Below, piece after piece: positions 14,084 to 27,610 of a stretch of DNA of 33,576 nt. The translations under genes and the position numbers were made by a program. The stretch covers positions 1 through 33,576 of the forward strand of contig JAMOPL010000127.1 in assembly GCA_027064515.1 (NCBI GenBank). The letters are read 5' to 3'. The notes under the pieces are model-generated. The model was not told where the DNA came from and ran no database searches. It was given only the letters and a program-made list of their open reading frames with translations. The stretch comes from Sulfurimonas sp. Its GTDB lineage: Bacteria; Campylobacterota; Campylobacteria; Campylobacterales; Sulfurimonadaceae. Within the stretch, counting starts at the first letter, position 1. The number at the start of each line of letters is the position of its first letter.

Positions 14084-14827
14084 CTATTTTCCCTTTAATT
14101 TTCTTTTTAAATTAACTCTGTTTTCTAGAATTTTTGCCTCATCTAAAACTATTTTGATAGCTTCTTCTTCATTATAATTACAAAGTTTTGCATACTCTTT
14201 TGCAATAAGTACTAAATCATTTTTATCTTTTGCCCAAAATTTGTTGAAGTTTTTTAGTCCATCATTTGCAGATATAGTTTTAAATTCCATTCTATTAATA
14301 TCTACAAGTGAAAATTTATATTTAGAATCCTCTTTAGTTATAAGAATATTTCCAAGTGAATAATCAACATGCCAAACACCTTTTTGATGAATCTCATAAG
14401 TAAATTTTGTAAACTGTTTTAAAATTTCTTGATGATTTTCTACTTTATGGTGAAAAACTTCTCGAATTGTTACATCATAAGCTTCATACTTTGATATAAA
14501 ATAACTTTCTTTGAGTAAACCTAGAGAGAAAAACTCTATAATAGCGATAGGCTTAGGTGTGTTTACATCTAACTTTTGTAGTTTTATAGCATTGAGATAA
14601 GATTTTTTTGCTTTCCCATCTCTTATATAGCTATAAGCGATTCGATTAATTATATGAGGAATTTTAAAAGCTTTTACAACACATTTAATCCCATTTAACT
14701 CAATGATTTTCAATTCATTTCTTGCTTTATGAATACTGTTATCAGTATCATTAAAAATAGATTTTATATTTAAAAGATCATTTTTAAAATGTTCATAATT
14801 AGTGTTTATTCTGTATTTAAAACTCAT
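14084..14827 (-). CDS. Lipopolysaccharide core kinase-like protein (KdkA/WaaP type)
   Basis: 247 residues with a protein-kinase-like fold as in Kdo and heptose kinases. A candidate ATP-binding lysine is Lys52 (CVVKAF). The catalytic loop is HVDYSLGN (His153, Asp155, Asn160), and the metal-binding aspartate corresponding to DFG is Asp176 (LVDIN). Such enzymes put phosphate on inner-core LPS sugars on the cytoplasmic side. The gene starts 5 bp after the phosphoethanolamine-transferase-like gene on the same strand, so the two are probably co-transcribed: one could add phosphate and the other phosphoethanolamine to the same core. The gene is convergent with rodA. The acceptor sugar cannot be read from sequence. 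Confidence 0.75.
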   Translation of the reverse strand: MSFKYRINTNYEHFKNDLLNIKSIFNDTDNSIHKARNELKIIELNGIKCVVKAFKIPHIINRIAYSYIRDGKAKKSYLNAIKLQKLDVNTPKPIAIIEFFSLGLLKESYFISKYEAYDVTIREVFHHKVENHQEILKQFTKFTYEIHQKGVWHVDYSLGNILITKEDSKYKFSLVDINRMEFKTISANDGLKNFNKFWAKDKNDLVLIAKEYAKLCNYNEEEAIKIVLDEAKILENRVNLKRKLKGK

Positions 14828-20866: not shown

Positions 20867-21985
20867 TTGAAAATTGTATATATATCAAGGTCAATAATAC
20901 CATCAAGAACAGCAAATAGTATCAATGTGATGAAGATGTGCAGTACATTTGCATCTTTAGGTCACGAAGTGATTCTTCTAGCTCCATGGACAAAAAAACT
21001 TGAAGAGAAAGGTATTGATGATATATTTGAATACTATGGTGTTGAGAAAAATTTTATATTAAATAAACTTTATTCCCCAAACATTAAATATATGAAGAAA
21101 AGAATATATTCATTTAGATGTTTAGGTCAAGTGAAAAAAATAGAGCCTGATATTGTTTATGGTAGAGATGATATGTTAGCTTTTTATTTAACACAAAAAA
21201 ATGGCTTTTATACTGTATTTGAAAAACATGAACCTTTTGACAATAAAGGATTTAATGATTATTTTTTTAAAAAATTTATAAATAATAAAAATATAAAAAT
21301 GATAGTTAATTCAAATGAACTAAAGAAAATGTATCTTAAGTCATGCAATATAAAAGATGATTCAATTTTAGTAGCAAATAATGGAACAAATATAATAGCT
21401 GATAAACAAATTCCTAGTGGAATTGATATTGACAAAAACAAGATTCAGATTGGTTATGTTGGTAGTTTGTTTAGGGGTCGTGGAATTGATATAATTGTTG
21501 AATTAGCGAAAAGAATACCAGAAGCTAATTTTCATATTATTGGTGGAAAAGATAAAGATTTAGAGTATTGGCAGAAGCAAGTAAATTACAAAAATCTAAT
21601 TTTTCATGGTTTTGTGGAACCAAAAGAAACATATAAGTATAGAAATATGTGTGATATATTATTAGCACCTTATCAAAGTGATAATGAGGGTAATCGCTCA
21701 AGTAAATATATGTCCCCTATTAAACTATTTGAATATATGTCATCAAAAAGGGTGATTATTTGCTCAAACTTTAAAGTAGTATATGAGGCTTTAAATGATG
21801 ATTGTGCAGTATTAGTAGATAGTTCTAATATTGATGAATGGGAAAATGCAGTAATAAACTTGATAAATGATAAAAATAAGAGAGAAAAATTAGCAAATAA
21901 AGCTTATGAAAACTTTTTAGAAAATTTTACTTGGAAAAGTAGAGCTCAAAAGATTTTAAAATTTTTAGATGTTAAAGATGATTGA
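20867..21985 (+). CDS. Glycosyltransferase family 4 (third of three)
   Basis: 372 residues from a TTG start at 20867 with a strong AAGGAGA site 6 nt upstream, the best ribosome-binding site in the locus. GT-B features: N-terminal SRSIIPSRTANSINVMKMC, then VYGRDD, EKHEPF, VGSLFRGRGID and HGFVEPKETYKYRNMCDILLAPY in separate blocks, and SPIKLFEYMSSKRVIICSNF as the donor-side motif. It differs clearly from the other two GT4 genes. Its 3' end overlaps the YrbL-like gene by 17 nt. Probably an LPS core or O-chain sugar transferase of unknown specificity. Confidence 0.83.
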   Translation: MKIVYISRSIIPSRTANSINVMKMCSTFASLGHEVILLAPWTKKLEEKGIDDIFEYYGVEKNFILNKLYSPNIKYMKKRIYSFRCLGQVKKIEPDIVYGRDDMLAFYLTQKNGFYTVFEKHEPFDNKGFNDYFFKKFINNKNIKMIVNSNELKKMYLKSCNIKDDSILVANNGTNIIADKQIPSGIDIDKNKIQIGYVGSLFRGRGIDIIVELAKRIPEANFHIIGGKDKDLEYWQKQVNYKNLIFHGFVEPKETYKYRNMCDILLAPYQSDNEGNRSSKYMSPIKLFEYMSSKRVIICSNFKVVYEALNDDCAVLVDSSNIDEWENAVINLINDKNKREKLANKAYENFLENFTWKSRAQKILKFLDVKDD

Positions 21986-22580
21986 ATTAAGTGATTCATA
22001 TTATATAGGTAAAGGTACAAACAGGGGATGTTATATTCATCCTGAAGATGATCAAAAATGTATAAAAATCACAGTTTCTAATGACTATTCAGAATCTAAA
22101 AAAGAGATAAAATATTATAAGTTTTTGCAAAAACAAAATATTTCGTGGGATAATATAGCAAAATATTACGGATTAGTTAAAACAAATTTAGGGGATGGTG
22201 CTATTTTTGATTTAGTTAAAGATTTTGATGGAGAAATTTCTAAAACATTATCTTATTATCTACAAAAAGATCAGTTAACAAAGCAAATTTTAAACCCCAT
22301 TATATTATTAAAAAGATTAAAAAAATATACCTTAGAAGAGGGTATCGTTGTAAAAGACCTTAATACAAAAAATATGTTATATCAAAAAATAGATAAAGAT
22401 AATGCAAAGTTAGTTCTTATAGATGGTGTTATAAATAATAATTTTTTATTTTATTCAAATTATTCAAATTACTTAGCTAATAAAAAAATAAAAAAGTTAT
22501 GGAGTGATTTTGAATCTACATTATCAAAAAAATATGCTTTTAATAAATACTTTATTAATTTATTGAATGGTTTGAACTAA
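21969..22580 (+). CDS. YrbL-like protein kinase-fold protein (copy 1)
   Basis: 203 residues. It resembles the PhoP-regulatory-network YrbL family, a compact kinase-like fold. A candidate nucleotide-binding lysine is Lys33 (CIKIT), a catalytic-loop-like KDLNTKN has Asp130 and Asn135, and VLIDG gives Asp152 at the DFG position. A glycine-rich KGTNRGC (15-21) is at the N-terminus. The catalytic residues look intact, so it may phosphorylate a sugar or lipid, most likely part of the LPS being built by neighbours. The start is uncertain: ATG at 21969 or 21978, neither with a good ribosome-binding site, both inside the upstream GT4 gene, suggesting coupling. A second copy lies at 26975-27610 on the other strand. 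Confidence 0.7.
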   Translation: MLKMIELSDSYYIGKGTNRGCYIHPEDDQKCIKITVSNDYSESKKEIKYYKFLQKQNISWDNIAKYYGLVKTNLGDGAIFDLVKDFDGEISKTLSYYLQKDQLTKQILNPIILLKRLKKYTLEEGIVVKDLNTKNMLYQKIDKDNAKLVLIDGVINNNFLFYSNYSNYLANKKIKKLWSDFESTLSKKYAFNKYFINLLNGLN

Positions 22581-23869
22581 TGGCTAAAGAGTTAAAAAAA
22601 GATATAAGTGAGGTTGTTGAACAATATTTATGTCATAGTTGTGGTTCGTGTTTTACATCTTGTGGACATGATAGTATCAGTTATAGTAAAACAGTAGCAG
22701 GTTATCTATTTCCTAAAATAGATTATGATACATGTACAAATTGTGGTTTATGTTATGATATTTGTTCTGGTGAGCATTTTAATGAATCTTTAGTTGCTAA
22801 AACTCCAAGTGATCCATTTGTTGGAGATGTGATAGGTACATATATTGGTAAATCAACAGATGAGTTTATATATAAAAACTCACAAAGTGGTGGTATAGTT
22901 ACTTCTATTTTAACATATTTACTTGATTCGAAAAAAATATCAGCTGCTATTGTAACAACAATGAATAGTGATTATATGCCTGATTCAAAAGGGATAGTTA
23001 TAACTTCCTCAAAAGAGTTATTAGAAGCACAAAAATCAAAATATATACCAACAAATATTACATCTTTACTTCCAAAAATTGAAAAAATAGATGGAAATAT
23101 TGCTATGGTTGGTCTATCTTGCCATATGCATGGTTTAGAAAATTTAATAAAAATTAAGAAAAAATTGAATAGTAAAATTATTAAAATTGGTTTAGTATGT
23201 GATAGAGTAATGTTACATTCATCAATAGAGTTTTTGTCTAAAAGAGTTACAAACTCAAAAGTAGATAATTTTGTATTTCGGGATACATCAAATAGTAAAT
23301 ATCCAGGTGATATAACAGTTTATAGTGATAATAAAATCAATATTTTAGATAAAAGTTATAGAAAAACAATGAAAAATTATTTTACACCCGCTAGATGTTA
23401 TTTATGTTTTGACAAGATGAATATATATTCAGATATAGTTGTTGGTGATCCACATGGTTTTGATGGTATAGATAGGGATAATGGAGAGAGTTTGGTAATT
23501 ACTAGAACATCCCTTGGTGAAAGTATAGTCCAAGAGGTAATAATTGCTAATACTATATTGTTAAGAGATGCATCTTTTGAACTAGCCATTGAGGGTCAAG
23601 ATATTAATGGTAAAAGAAAAAAATGGAATGCTAATTATAGAGCATGGGAAGAGTTAGGTTATAAGTTACCTAGTTACCCAAAAGATGTTATTGAAAATTC
23701 TATTGTTGCAGAAAAAAAAGATATAGAAAAAGCAAAAAAAGCTTTAAAGCATTCATTGAAACTCGATAAGTATATAACAAGAGAAGAGTTAATTAAAGAT
23801 GCTAATGATTTTTATGAAAATAAAACATCAAAGAAGTCTATTTTTAGTTTTATAAAAAAATTATTTTAG
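22580..23869 (+). CDS. FrhB-type iron-sulfur flavoprotein-like protein of polysaccharide loci
   Basis: 429 residues. Two 4Fe-4S ferredoxin motifs are near the N-terminus (Cys18-21-24-28 and Cys52-55-58-62), followed by the coenzyme F420 hydrogenase/dehydrogenase beta-subunit domain (about 80-400) with NSQSGGIVTSI, VGLSCHMHGL, CDRVMLHS, and ARCYLCFDKMN...DIVVGDPHG. It is not a methanogen enzyme: F420-independent members of this family occur beside polysaccharide pyruvyl transferases in many exopolysaccharide and LPS clusters, as here (next gene 20 bp downstream). A redox role in sugar modification is plausible but unproven. Its ATG overlaps the YrbL-like stop (TAATG). Confidence 0.75.
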   Translation: MAKELKKDISEVVEQYLCHSCGSCFTSCGHDSISYSKTVAGYLFPKIDYDTCTNCGLCYDICSGEHFNESLVAKTPSDPFVGDVIGTYIGKSTDEFIYKNSQSGGIVTSILTYLLDSKKISAAIVTTMNSDYMPDSKGIVITSSKELLEAQKSKYIPTNITSLLPKIEKIDGNIAMVGLSCHMHGLENLIKIKKKLNSKIIKIGLVCDRVMLHSSIEFLSKRVTNSKVDNFVFRDTSNSKYPGDITVYSDNKINILDKSYRKTMKNYFTPARCYLCFDKMNIYSDIVVGDPHGFDGIDRDNGESLVITRTSLGESIVQEVIIANTILLRDASFELAIEGQDINGKRKKWNANYRAWEELGYKLPSYPKDVIENSIVAEKKDIEKAKKALKHSLKLDKYITREELIKDANDFYENKTSKKSIFSFIKKLF

Positions 23870-23888
23870 AACAAAAAAAGGAGTATAT

Positions 23889-25025
23889 ATGTTAGTTGAG
23901 ATAAGGGGTGTAGGTTTTGTAAATAAGGGTGCAGAACTTATGTTACACGCAATATTGCAAAAAATGCAAGAGAAATATCCTGATGCAAGATTTGTAATGA
24001 CACCTAGTATAAATGTATCCCCTTATATAAAAAGAGCAAAATTAGGTTTATATCAAAAAGTAACATATAAAAAACTCGGCATTGAATGGGGAAATCTAGT
24101 AAGGCTTATAACTAAAAAGAGAAGAGATATGTATGGCTTGGTTTTAGATAGTGAGATAGATGTAGTTCTTGATGCTTCTGGATTTGCTCATGGTGATCAA
24201 TGGGGTGCTAAAAATACTATAAAATTAAAAAAATTAACTAAAAAATGGAAAAATAATAATACTAAAGTAATATTACTTCCTCAAGCTTTTGGACCTTTTG
24301 AAAATAGCGAAATAAAAAATAATATGATAGATTTAGCTAATAATGTTGATTTGATTTTTTCAAGAGAAACTACCTCTTACAATTATTTAAGTTCAATAGT
24401 AAAGGATAAATCTAAAATATATAATATGCCAGATTTTACAAATTTAGTTATCGGCATAAAACCTAAAAATTTTAATAGTGAAAAAAATAATTTTTGTATT
24501 ATTCCGAATTATAAAATGGAAAGTAAGAGTTGGTCTAATGGTAAAGGTGATTATTTAACTTTTATAGTAAAGTGTATTAAATACTTACAAATAAATGGCA
24601 AAAAACCATTTATTTTAGTGCATGAGGGTAAAAAAGATATGGCATTGGCTAAAAAAATATCTGATGAAGTTGGTGGATTGAATATCTTGACAGAAGAAGA
24701 TGCTCTTAAAGTAAAAGGTATTATAGGGGCTTGTGAAGGTGTGATTGGCAGTAGATTCCATAGTTTAGTTAGTTCTTTAAGTCAAGGGATACCAACTTTA
24801 GGAACAAGCTGGAGTCATAAGTATCAAATGCTATTTGAAGATTATAATTTTAAAGATGGTATATTGCAATTAGATGCAAGCGATAAAGAGATAGAGGAAA
24901 AGATAGATTTGATGCTAGTCGAAGAAAAAAGAGAAATACTTATAGATAGTTTAGAAGTTAAATCAAAAGAGTTAAAAAAGTTATCTAATCAGATGTGGGA
25001 AAAAGTTTTTGAGACAATAAGATAA
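23889..25025 (+). CDS. Polysaccharide pyruvyl transferase family protein
   Basis: 378 residues. Family features are the N-terminal RGVGFVNKGAELML (the glycine/asparagine loop), VVLDASGFAHGDQWG, LLPQAFGPFEN, the SRETTSY region and the C-terminal GSRFHSLVSSLSQG with GTSWSHKY, where Arg and His are the expected catalytic/PEP-binding residues. CsaB/WcaK-type enzymes move pyruvate from PEP to form ketal-pyruvylated sugars, giving a negative charge. AAAAGGAG lies just before the ATG. It pairs with the FrhB-type gene 20 bp upstream, and is the last plus-strand gene before an inverted island. Some family members have sulfhydryl or other roles, so pyruvyl transfer is likely but not proven. Confidence 0.78.
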   Translation: MLVEIRGVGFVNKGAELMLHAILQKMQEKYPDARFVMTPSINVSPYIKRAKLGLYQKVTYKKLGIEWGNLVRLITKKRRDMYGLVLDSEIDVVLDASGFAHGDQWGAKNTIKLKKLTKKWKNNNTKVILLPQAFGPFENSEIKNNMIDLANNVDLIFSRETTSYNYLSSIVKDKSKIYNMPDFTNLVIGIKPKNFNSEKNNFCIIPNYKMESKSWSNGKGDYLTFIVKCIKYLQINGKKPFILVHEGKKDMALAKKISDEVGGLNILTEEDALKVKGIIGACEGVIGSRFHSLVSSLSQGIPTLGTSWSHKYQMLFEDYNFKDGILQLDASDKEIEEKIDLMLVEEKREILIDSLEVKSKELKKLSNQMWEKVFETIR

Positions 25026-25030
25026 TAATT

Positions 25031-25079
25031 AATATATCTCTAATGAATTGGACTAAATCTTTTTATTAGAGAATATATT
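25031..25079. terminator. AT-rich hairpin between convergent genes (possible bidirectional terminator)
   Basis: Arms 25031-25044 and 25065-25079 are complementary over 14 pairs with a one-base bulge; the loop is 20 nt. It occupies nearly the whole 52-bp gap between the pyruvyl transferase and the P-loop gene and overlaps the stop codon of the latter. The stem is almost entirely A/T and has no adjoining clean T-run, so efficient termination is doubtful. Confidence 0.4.
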
Positions 25080-26016
25080 ATTTAAGAAGATTGATTTTTT
25101 TACCAATATAAAAAATATTATTTTTGCAATTATCTAAATTATTCCCTGTATTTATATAACTATAAACAACAGCTGGTTTTTCTAAATAAATTTTAAAATT
25201 TAACTCTCTATATTTATCTATATCATCTGAACTAAGCTCATCTTTTCTAGTTAAAATAATTTCACTTTTTGCATCAAGATGGATTATCCAAAATGTTCTA
25301 GGGATAAACTTTAAAAGTAATTGCCAGTTTTCCCTTATGGTAGTAGTTTTATCCATAAAAGATATATTTTTTAGCAGAGAATCATTAAAGAATCTATCAA
25401 TAAAAATTAATTTTTTTGAAATTAATGAGATAGCTATTAAATATGGATAATACAGTAAAGCAACTAAAATAATTAATTTATGATGTTTATCATCATGCTG
25501 ATCCTTTTCAGGTTTTTTACCAAGTTTTTTTCTTAAAATCGCTCGATTTATTGGATATAAAATATTATAGATTATTGATCTTCTAACAATTTTTTTAAAT
25601 CTTTTAATCATAAATTTTTGATTTAGAGAGTTTAAAATTGTAGTTAATAGTGTTGTCTTACCAACACCATCAGGACCAATTATTGGTATAATTGTAATTA
25701 TTTTTAAAATACTGTTTTTAAGTTTATAAAAATTAGAATTTATTTTATAAGAGGCAGAATTATTATCTCTTTGTAATTCTAAAATAATTGTTTTTATATC
25801 AGAGTTTTTTTTATCAAATATACTGATTATACATTTATCATATTCTTCTCTATTGATTGAAAAAGAGTATTCATTTTTAGAAGAGATATTAAAAAGAATT
25901 AATAGAATCTTATTTAAGTTTTTAATATCTATTTGTAAATTATTATTGTTTTCTAATATACAAAGATTATTATTTATCTCATTATATATAAGTGTATATA
26001 AATCATCAAGATTCAT
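25078..26016 (-). CDS. Thymidylate-kinase-like P-loop protein with novel N-terminal domain (copy 1)
   Basis: 312 residues. The first ~105 residues form a separate domain (LYTLI, FNISS, EYSFSINR, YKINS blocks) that I do not recognise. Then comes a P-loop kinase domain with Walker A GPDGVGKTT (114-122), a DR motif as in nucleotide monophosphate kinases (IDRFFNDS, Asp207-Arg208), and a lid-like basic region (RKDELSSDDIDKYRELNFKIY). The housekeeping enzyme is ~200 residues and lacks this N-terminus, so a tmk role is unlikely. It is a tandem paralogue of the next-upstream gene: motifs fall at the same residue numbers and more than half the residues look identical. It starts inside the 3' end of that gene (11-nt overlap) with AAAGG 7-8 nt upstream. 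Possible role: phosphorylating a sugar or lipid for the LPS locus. Confidence 0.7.
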   Translation of the reverse strand: MNLDDLYTLIYNEINNNLCILENNNNLQIDIKNLNKILLILFNISSKNEYSFSINREEYDKCIISIFDKKNSDIKTIILELQRDNNSASYKINSNFYKLKNSILKIITIIPIIGPDGVGKTTLLTTILNSLNQKFMIKRFKKIVRRSIIYNILYPINRAILRKKLGKKPEKDQHDDKHHKLIILVALLYYPYLIAISLISKKLIFIDRFFNDSLLKNISFMDKTTTIRENWQLLLKFIPRTFWIIHLDAKSEIILTRKDELSSDDIDKYRELNFKIYLEKPAVVYSYINTGNNLDNCKNNIFYIGKKINLLK

Positions 26017-26962
26017 TTGTAACCTTTTTTAAAACTCCTGTCTCATCACCAATAGTCAATATAGTGTTCTTACAGTTTTCTAAATCATTTCCTGTGTTTA
26101 TATAGCTATAAATAACTGCTGGTTTTTCTAAATAAATTTTAAAATTCAATTCTCTATATTTATCTATATCATCATAACTGAGTTCATTCTTTCTACTTAA
26201 AATTATCTCATTTTTTGCATCAAGTTGAATTATCCAAAATGTTATAGGGATAAATTTTAAAAGTGTTTTCCAATTTTTTCTAAGTAAAATAATTTTGTCA
26301 ATAAATCTTATATTTTCCATAAGGGAATCTTGAAAAAACCTATCTACAAAGATGAGTTTTTTTTGAAAAAAAGCTATCATTATTAAATATGGATAGTATG
26401 TTAAACCAGACATAATTACAAGACCTGGATTTTGGTCACTTATCTCATTTTTACCTTTTTTTATCCCTTTTTTCTTTAGTTTATATACATTTAATGGGTA
26501 TGTTAGATTAAAAACAATAGATCTTCTTGTTATTCTTTTAAATACTTTAAGTAGATATTTTTGATTCAAAGAATCTGTTATAGTAGTTAAAAGTGTTGTT
26601 TTTCCAGCTCCATCAGGACCTATTAAAGGTATGATTGTAATTGCTTTTAGAATACTATTTCTAATAGTATAAAATTTTGAATTTATTTTATATCTAAAAC
26701 TATTCTTATCTCTTATATAAAAAAGAGATATTATTTTTTTAGTAGAACTAATTTTATCAAAGATATAAATTAAACATCTATTATAGTCATCTCTATTTAT
26801 GGAAAAAGAGTATTCATTCGAAGATGATATGTTAAATATGAATAATAAAATATTATCTAAATTTTCAATATCTATCAAATAGCTTAAATCATCTTGTGCC
26901 ACACCAAATTTTTTATCTATTATTTCATTGTTAATAAGTGTATATAAATTATTTAAATCCAT
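26006..26962 (-). CDS. Thymidylate-kinase-like P-loop protein with novel N-terminal domain (copy 2)
   Basis: 318 residues, paralogue of the following gene. It shares the unknown N-terminal domain (1-110), Walker A GPDGAGKTT (115-123), VDRFFQDS (Asp207-Arg208) and RKNELSYDDIDKYRELNFKIY near the C-terminus. The middle segment 155-180 is the most divergent between copies (lysine-rich here, His/Asp-rich in copy 1), whereas the last third is nearly the same even at DNA level. AAAAAGGA lies 6 nt before the ATG, and the gene starts 12 bp after the YrbL-like copy 2. The three genes form one minus-strand unit that points against the surrounding plus-strand locus. Catalytic residues of the P-loop look intact; the substrate is unknown. 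Confidence 0.7.
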   Translation of the reverse strand: MDLNNLYTLINNEIIDKKFGVAQDDLSYLIDIENLDNILLFIFNISSSNEYSFSINRDDYNRCLIYIFDKISSTKKIISLFYIRDKNSFRYKINSKFYTIRNSILKAITIIPLIGPDGAGKTTLLTTITDSLNQKYLLKVFKRITRRSIVFNLTYPLNVYKLKKKGIKKGKNEISDQNPGLVIMSGLTYYPYLIMIAFFQKKLIFVDRFFQDSLMENIRFIDKIILLRKNWKTLLKFIPITFWIIQLDAKNEIILSRKNELSYDDIDKYRELNFKIYLEKPAVIYSYINTGNDLENCKNTILTIGDETGVLKKVTNES

Positions 26963-26974
26963 AATTATCCTTTT

Positions 26975-27610
26975 TTAATATCTCTTAATTGGTCTAACAC
27001 CAAGTTTTATTCTTTTTAAATCTTTTTTATACATCTGCATATATTTGTGCCATTGTTTTTTTATCTTGTATTTTGTATATAGTTTACAGTGTCTATAAAA
27101 CCAAAATTTAAAACCTATTCTTTTCGCTCCTAACCCATCAATTATAATAAGTTTATAGTTTAGAGGATCTATTTTTTTACAAAATACATTGGTCATACTT
27201 GTATCAACAAATAAAATAGAATTTTTTTCTAAATAGAGTTTAAGTTCATTTAGAAGATTTTTTTGTAACTCTATTGGTATTAGTTTGTTTGCTATATAAT
27301 ATCTAAATGATTTTGATGGTTGATTATCATAATCAGTAATCCTTTCAAATATTAGACCGATTCCAAAATTAGTATTTATTTCACCATAATATTTTGCTAC
27401 TTGATTTAAATTAGTTCGTTTCTTTTCTAGATATGACATATATATATGTTCTAACTTATTTTGTTGATTATGAGAATCTTTAACATAAATAATTTTTATA
27501 AGTTTTTTATTGTCATTTGGATGAAGAAAACAGCTCCTCTCTCCACCTTTTGCAATAATATCTTTTTTTTCCAATTCTATATAGTTCATATGATATGTTT
27601 GATTTTCCAT
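26975..27610 (-). CDS. YrbL-like protein kinase-fold protein (copy 2)
   Basis: 211 residues, of the same family as the gene at 21969-22580: glycine-rich KGGERSC (21-27), Lys39 (LIKII), VAKYYGEINTNFG matching IAKYYGLVKTNLG of copy 1, the catalytic-loop-like VDTSMTN (Asp136, Asn141) and IIIDGLG (Asp158). The second residue of the loop differs from copy 1 (VD against KD), but Asp and Asn are kept. It heads the minus-strand unit with the two P-loop genes. The ATG at 27610 lies 6 nt after a TATAAT and has no ribosome-binding site, suggesting a leaderless message; an in-frame ATG at 27589 has no better site. The C-terminus is very basic, which may favour membrane or LPS contact. Confidence 0.7.
   Translation of the reverse strand: MENQTYHMNYIELEKKDIIAKGGERSCFLHPNDNKKLIKIIYVKDSHNQQNKLEHIYMSYLEKKRTNLNQVAKYYGEINTNFGIGLIFERITDYDNQPSKSFRYYIANKLIPIELQKNLLNELKLYLEKNSILFVDTSMTNVFCKKIDPLNYKLIIIDGLGAKRIGFKFWFYRHCKLYTKYKIKKQWHKYMQMYKKDLKRIKLGVRPIKRY

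Follow-up and report, generated by a model that had tools for sequence, protein, structure and literature searches.

Kdo and WaaY kinases phosphorylate hydroxyls, and kinases of the thymidylate kinase (TMPK) fold as a rule phosphorylate a phosphate. YrbL-fold proteins share a protein-kinase-like clan with the Kdo and WaaY kinases (families listed in PMC9758233). The function of E. coli YrbL was reported as unknown in a 2024 paper that deals with antimicrobial-peptide resistance mutations in YrbL (PMC11842939). Here we describe a YrbL gene beside two tandem P-loop kinase genes in the lipopolysaccharide (LPS) locus of a Sulfurimonas sp. The window, by which we mean the whole 33,576-nucleotide stretch that was analysed (contig JAMOPL010000127.1), is from a genome that is 80% complete and belongs to the same genus as a Sulfurimonas MAG. 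In the open-access literature searched, we found no description of a YrbL/P-loop pairing and nothing decisive on the phosphate structure of Arcobacter LPS. The parts are known folds, and their combination and its consistency appear to be new.

A minus-strand module within a plus-strand LPS locus

The module consists of three minus-strand genes (Table 1). The P1 and P2 reading frames overlap by 11 bp, and a gap of 12 bp separates P2 from YrbL1. Around them on the plus strand are genes for glycosyltransferases, an O-antigen ligase, an FrhB-like protein, and a polysaccharide pyruvyl transferase. Plus-strand sulfatase-fold (phosphoethanolamine-transferase-like) genes also flank the module, one of which follows the run, and a Kdo/WaaP-family (PF06293) member is at 14084-14827. 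The reading frames and flanking genes therefore confirm the initial annotation of three tightly packed minus-strand genes inside a plus-strand LPS locus. With a G+C content of 21.7% (27.4% for the window), the module is A+T-richer. Six tRNA genes (Lys, Asp, Val, Glu, Val, Asp) are clustered at 1392-2114 of the window.

Table 1. Features of the module (window positions)
Feature	Coordinates	Strand	Basis
P-loop protein 1 (P1), 312 aa: degenerate nucleotidyltransferase (NTase)-like N-terminal domain (likely) and TMPK-like kinase domain	25078-26016	-	ORF
P-loop protein 2 (P2), 318 aa, tandem paralogue of P1	26006-26962	-	ORF
YrbL1, 211 aa, protein-kinase-like fold, partner clade	26975-27610	-	PF10707, YrbL tree, motif alignment
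P1 N-terminal domain, residues 1-105, likely a shrunken nucleotidyltransferase-like domain, DxD lost	25702-26016	-	hhalign, AF2 model
Walker A of P1, GPDGVGKTT, residues 114-122	25651-25677	-	Alignment
Walker A of P2, GPDGAGKTT, residues 115-123	26594-26620	-	Alignment

The P-loop proteins are TMPK-like but distinct from housekeeping Tmk

P1 and P2 are 62% identical over 313 columns. Their dN/dS is approximately 0.27 overall and 0.24 within the P-loop part, which places both under purifying selection. An AlphaFold2 model of P1 from an alignment of 21 homologues had a pLDDT of 92.2 and a pTM of 0.90. Residues 106-312 of the model resembled thymidylate kinases and archaeal adenylate kinases (best Z 13.8, 3.4 A, 182 residues). 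As modelled, the P-loop domain is of the thymidylate/adenylate-kinase fold. The two proteins had been described from the start as P-loop paralogues with intact Walker A and DR motifs, and the alignment bore this out: both copies retain the Walker A sequence GPDGxGKTT, the DR motif, a lid-region R-K-x-E-L, and other near-invariant residues of the family. Fold, Walker A, and DR motif, the criteria for a TMPK-like P-loop kinase, were all present.

P1 and P2 scored 14 and 16.4 bits against TIGR00041 (dTMP kinase), which has a cut-off of 83.25. Both are missing the TREPGG substrate motif and have a basic arm, RFKKxxRxS, instead. R145 is a putative counterpart of the TMPK substrate arginine. An ordinary tmk with TKEPGG, scoring 139 bits, is elsewhere in the same genome on another contig. 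We therefore rejected housekeeping dTMP kinase as an identity for P1 or P2, as the initial annotation had anticipated.

The N-terminal domain

The domain preceding the P-loop part was initially called unrecognised. It had no Pfam match, structure searches with full models returned matches taken up by the P-loop domain, and direct profile searches of Pfam and the PDB yielded little. Assignment as NTase-like therefore depends on a series of linked comparisons together with a conserved DxD motif. The domain is short (approximately 105 residues) in the Sulfurimonas and Arcobacter-type proteins, the latter being the most abundant among the proteins found. In relatives from other Campylobacterota, Vibrio, and Verrucomicrobia, the domain is approximately 235 residues long and carries a helical extension and a DxD that is invariant in the alignment. 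All short forms, including both window proteins, have lost the DxD. The short and long profiles matched each other in hhalign (probability 95.9, E 5.6e-9), so the domain becomes recognisable through its long homologues.

Later links in the chain are weak. The long profile matched the N-terminal domains of TMPK-like proteins of exopolysaccharide loci with an E value of 5.3e-4 and a probability of 31, with the DxD motifs aligned, and the latter profile matched NTP_transf_5 nucleotidyltransferases with an E value of 0.001 and a probability of 21. Direct profile comparisons of the long form with NTP_transf_5, and of the short form with the exopolysaccharide-locus domains, gave no link. One exopolysaccharide-locus protein (L073) has an N-terminal domain that matches PF14907 (NTP_transf_5) at 5.3e-5. 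In the P1 model, the domain runs helix-strand-strand-helix-three strands. In the predicted secondary structure of the L040 protein, the DxD opens the strand that follows the first helix-strand unit. From these sequence comparisons, the domain is likely to be nucleotidyltransferase-like and, in the window proteins, degenerate.

YrbL1 belongs to a clade that accompanies the P-loop gene

YrbL1 was rightly called YrbL-like. It matched PF10707 with an E value of 3.5e-42 (144.6 bits; curated cut-off, 31.5). It scored below the cut-off of PRK10345, the NCBIfam equivalog for true E. coli YrbL orthologues (120.5 versus 227 bits), and gave no Pfam match to PF06293 (Kdo/WaaP LPS kinase). Its kinase signature is complete (Lys39, Asp136-x4-Asn141, and Asp158-Gly-Leu-Gly). 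Partner YrbLs of Campylobacterota and Verrucomicrobia also keep the Lys, D-x4-N, and DGLG. In E. coli YrbL, a Ser occupies the position of the catalytic Asp.

In a YrbL tree, YrbL1 fell within a clade of 18, of which 12 are adjacent to a P-loop gene, 5 are fused to one, and 1 is neither (support 99/91). The second YrbL of the locus, on the plus strand at 21969, is indeed a YrbL (PF10707 E 7.5e-46; 36% identical to YrbL1), but the tree put it in a separate clade of six, none of which adjoins a P-loop gene (support 100/99). This rules it out as the partner of P1 and P2, and it is not part of the unit. The order YrbL (other clade), FrhB-like, and pyruvyl-transferase at 21969-25025 is the same in Arcobacter sp. 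CECT 8985 (L028:4238-7360), with 54% and 64% identity for the FrhB-like protein and the pyruvyl-transferase, respectively. In Arcobacter-type LPS loci (L024, L027, L035, and L036), two or three YrbL paralogues from different clades occur together, as if there were one per different sugar.

We also observed a YrbL class with the sequence IFNYGMMPKN and no catalytic Asp (L030:8769-9332, L043:1511-2077, L078:6079-6654, and L082:1453-2085). In L030 and L043, the P-loop gene adjoins a YrbL of this other class, with GMMPKN replacing D-x4-N. Many members of the YrbL family may be atypical or pseudokinases.

YrbL and the P-loop gene are paired across genera

Carrier searches used the P-loop protein as the sole query. 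Eleven of 397 Campylobacterota genomes had the P-loop gene, and YrbL was adjacent or fused to it in all 11. This was also true of an additional Sulfurimonas genome (G077), making 12 of the 12 Campylobacterota carriers found. PF10707 was above its cut-off in 10 of 200 Campylobacterota genomes. A scan of genome contigs revealed 16 loci with clear P-loop relatives (E <= 5e-18), and in 11 YrbL was fused or adjacent on the same strand. Elsewhere, YrbL was 2 kb away on the opposite strand (L044), the P-loop gene was split into two frames (L048), or it had no adjoining YrbL (L042, L045, and L049). The P-loop gene and YrbL of Aliamphritea (L045, genome G476) each appear to be split into two frames, in different places, and joint decay is possible.

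Four further genomes, of Vibrio (G477), Marinomonas (G478), Verrucomicrobia (G474), and a Helicobacteraceae MAG (G482), contain one YrbL each, and in every case this YrbL neighbours the P-loop gene. Assuming approximately one gene per kb, we estimate the chance of these four adjacencies at about 1e-13. Carriers amounted to 1 of 247 Vibrionaceae and 1 of 245 genomes in the order of Marinomonas, so the wider gammaproteobacterial pairing rests on single genomes. The module is rare and patchy yet paired, which suggests that it has been transferred as a unit.

Two kinds of fusion were found. In three Arcobacter-like genomes, the short N-terminal domain, the P-loop kinase, and YrbL form a single protein of 516 aa. 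The other kind, a protein of 645-651 aa, combines the long NTase-like domain with the same two parts and comes from two genomes that belong to the window's family. The YrbL parts of the two kinds are in different supported clades, a placement that needs two or more transitions to fusion. By this sequence tree, the fusion arose at least twice independently. Thus, the recurrent pairing in LPS loci across genera that was proposed at the outset as a test of a module is seen in Campylobacterota, Vibrio, Marinomonas, and Verrucomicrobia. Homologues were not scattered away from YrbL and glycan genes, and the N-terminal domain did not prove to be a nucleotide-metabolism family.

The surroundings are those of surface-glycan synthesis. 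The syntenic loci of Arcobacteraceae run Kdo-kinase-like, GT9, P-loop, YrbL, unassigned protein, and GT9, whereas the P-loop/YrbL order is flipped in Sulfurimonas. The two GT9 genes in the pair's surroundings are heptosyltransferases, and GT2/GT4/GT90, O-antigen ligase, and Kdo/WaaP-like kinase genes are there too. The Vibrio pair lies amid GT2, GT4, cytidylyltransferase-like (CoaD-like), GT90, and MutM-like genes, which we take to be the usual waa core surroundings. Searches of plasmids, phages, and viral contigs gave no matches to the module, and the sole PADLOC (anti-phage defence) match was to a P-loop stretch (E 0.0066). We therefore rejected a phage, plasmid, or defence origin.

A protein of approximately 350 aa, starting with WDxYSDQPxxxKD and with no Pfam match of note, directly follows YrbL in LPS inner-core loci (L077:3284-4933 on the minus strand, L023:7882-8940, L035:9513-10616, and G000 contig 23 [L078:6681-7940]). 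It is fused to YrbL in G203 (549 aa). By eye, it resembles a membrane-anchored glycosidase-type TIM barrel (ITETNWP).

Related three-part sets occur in exopolysaccharide loci of WOR-3, an unclassified bacterium, and another Campylobacterota genome. In L050:7284-9791 and L055:5865-8339, an NTase-like and TMPK-like protein has an APH-like domain at its C terminus. At L073:1441-3292, such a protein is overlapped at its end by a gene resembling the APH-like part by eye. TMPK-like, nucleotidyltransferase-like, and APH/RIO-like proteins are encoded by three separate neighbouring genes at L033:8699-10585, beside a FemAB-like gene. In this recurring NTase-like/TMPK-like/kinase-like set, the kinase-like partner is of two different kinds, YrbL and APH-like.

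Discussion

The YrbL/P-loop kinase pair is very probably a real functional unit, and as a kinase pair of glycan loci it is well supported. Co-location and fusion are silent on its chemistry. Our overall reading, with a probability of about 0.5, is that the two-kinase unit phosphorylates an LPS intermediate (core or lipid-linked glycan) in the cytoplasm. We somewhat favour LPS or another surface-glycan intermediate as the substrate, and phosphorylation of LPS by the pair is probable. By analogy with its WaaP/Kdo-kinase relatives of the same fold class, YrbL1 would phosphorylate a sugar hydroxyl. The TMPK-like enzyme, again by analogy, would extend the YrbL-made phosphate to a diphosphate or phosphorylate a second position. 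The degenerate NTase-like domain might be a binding or docking part, and two tandem P-loop copies might serve two acceptors. Because the Kdo and WaaY kinases of the YrbL clan act on hydroxyls and TMPK-fold kinases as a rule on phosphates, the order hydroxyl, phosphate, diphosphate is predicted, which we put forward tentatively and as less likely than not. It is doubtful that the two kinase types, YrbL and TMPK, together make up an enzyme dedicated to assembling a diphosphate in two steps on LPS or on a lipid-linked glycan. Counting against the two-kinase LPS unit are the three unpaired P-loop genes, the distant opposite-strand YrbL of L044, the adjoining YrbLs without catalytic Asp in L030 and L043, and the fact that the P-loop fold family also includes adenylate kinases.

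The unit might instead descend from, or belong to, a three-part pathway to an activated phospho-substituent. The kinase-like protein would phosphorylate a small molecule, which the NTase would couple to a nucleotide, and recharging or further phosphorylation would fall to the TMPK-like enzyme, with the NTase step lost from the window version. The three parts do recur together in varied arrangements, as one chain in L031, L032, L050, and L055 and as neighbouring genes in L033, L040, L041, L043, L046, and L073, and the long forms retain the DxD. However, the motif is gone from the window and Arcobacter-type proteins, the commonest among those found, and no transferase for such a product consistently adjoins, so we consider this rather unlikely. 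P1 and P2 could also be nucleotide kinases that recycle CMP, UMP, or dTMP from the glycosyltransferases among which they lie, in keeping with the resemblance of their fold to that of dTMP and adenylate kinases. Their TIGR00041 scores, the basic arm in place of TREPGG, and the genome's own tmk make this improbable, and it leaves the YrbL fusion unexplained.

It is just as improbable that YrbL, as a protein kinase-like protein or pseudokinase, regulates the P-loop enzyme instead of acting on glycan, or that the genes constitute a toxin-antitoxin or defence-like pair. Some toxin systems do contain nucleotidyltransferase and kinase pairs, and some YrbLs outside the partner clade, including that of E. 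coli, have no catalytic Asp. Partner-clade YrbLs of Campylobacterota and Verrucomicrobia have a complete kinase motif, however, and the negligible PADLOC match, the absence of phage or plasmid copies, and the constant placement in LPS/EPS loci argue the same way. Passive pairing, in which two common passengers of LPS loci are together by shared ancestry, would fit the synteny of the Arcobacteraceae loci and the several YrbL paralogues in each LPS locus. It is very unlikely given the flipped order in Sulfurimonas, the two independent fusions, and the sole YrbLs of Vibrio, Marinomonas, and Verrucomicrobia genomes, which neighbour the P-loop gene.

The fixed partner, the independent fusions, and the location in LPS loci lead directly to a testable hypothesis for the role of YrbL. 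If the two-step diphosphate enzyme is true, it would be the first biochemical role for the YrbL family and a new route to pyrophosphorylated surface glycans. The wider NTase-like, TMPK-like, and kinase-like family recurs across many phyla in polysaccharide loci, apparently with no assigned function.

Comparison with known systems places the module near four of them. The fusions of NTP_transf_5 (PF14907, uncharacterised nucleotidyltransferase) to TMPK-like domains in EPS loci have the domain order of the window proteins, but the window domain is approximately 105 aa and is without the DxD and the helical half. P1 and P2 share with thymidylate kinase (PF02223/TIGR00041) the fold (Z 13.8), the acidic P-loop GxDGxGKTT, the DR motif, and the lid-region R-K-x-E-L, but they have no TREPGG, carry an extra N-terminal domain, and fall below the family cut-offs. 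YrbL1 and E. coli YrbL (b3207, PhoP-regulated) are both PF10707 proteins, YrbL1 matching over its length, and both have Lys39 and Asp158. Unlike its E. coli counterpart, to which it is 21% identical, YrbL1 is under the PRK10345 cut-off, retains the catalytic Asp (Ser in E. coli), and is in an LPS locus. The Kdo/WaaP LPS core kinases (PF06293) are found in the same loci as YrbL1 and presumably share its protein-kinase-like fold class, but YrbL1 does not match PF06293 and, unlike them, has a P-loop partner.
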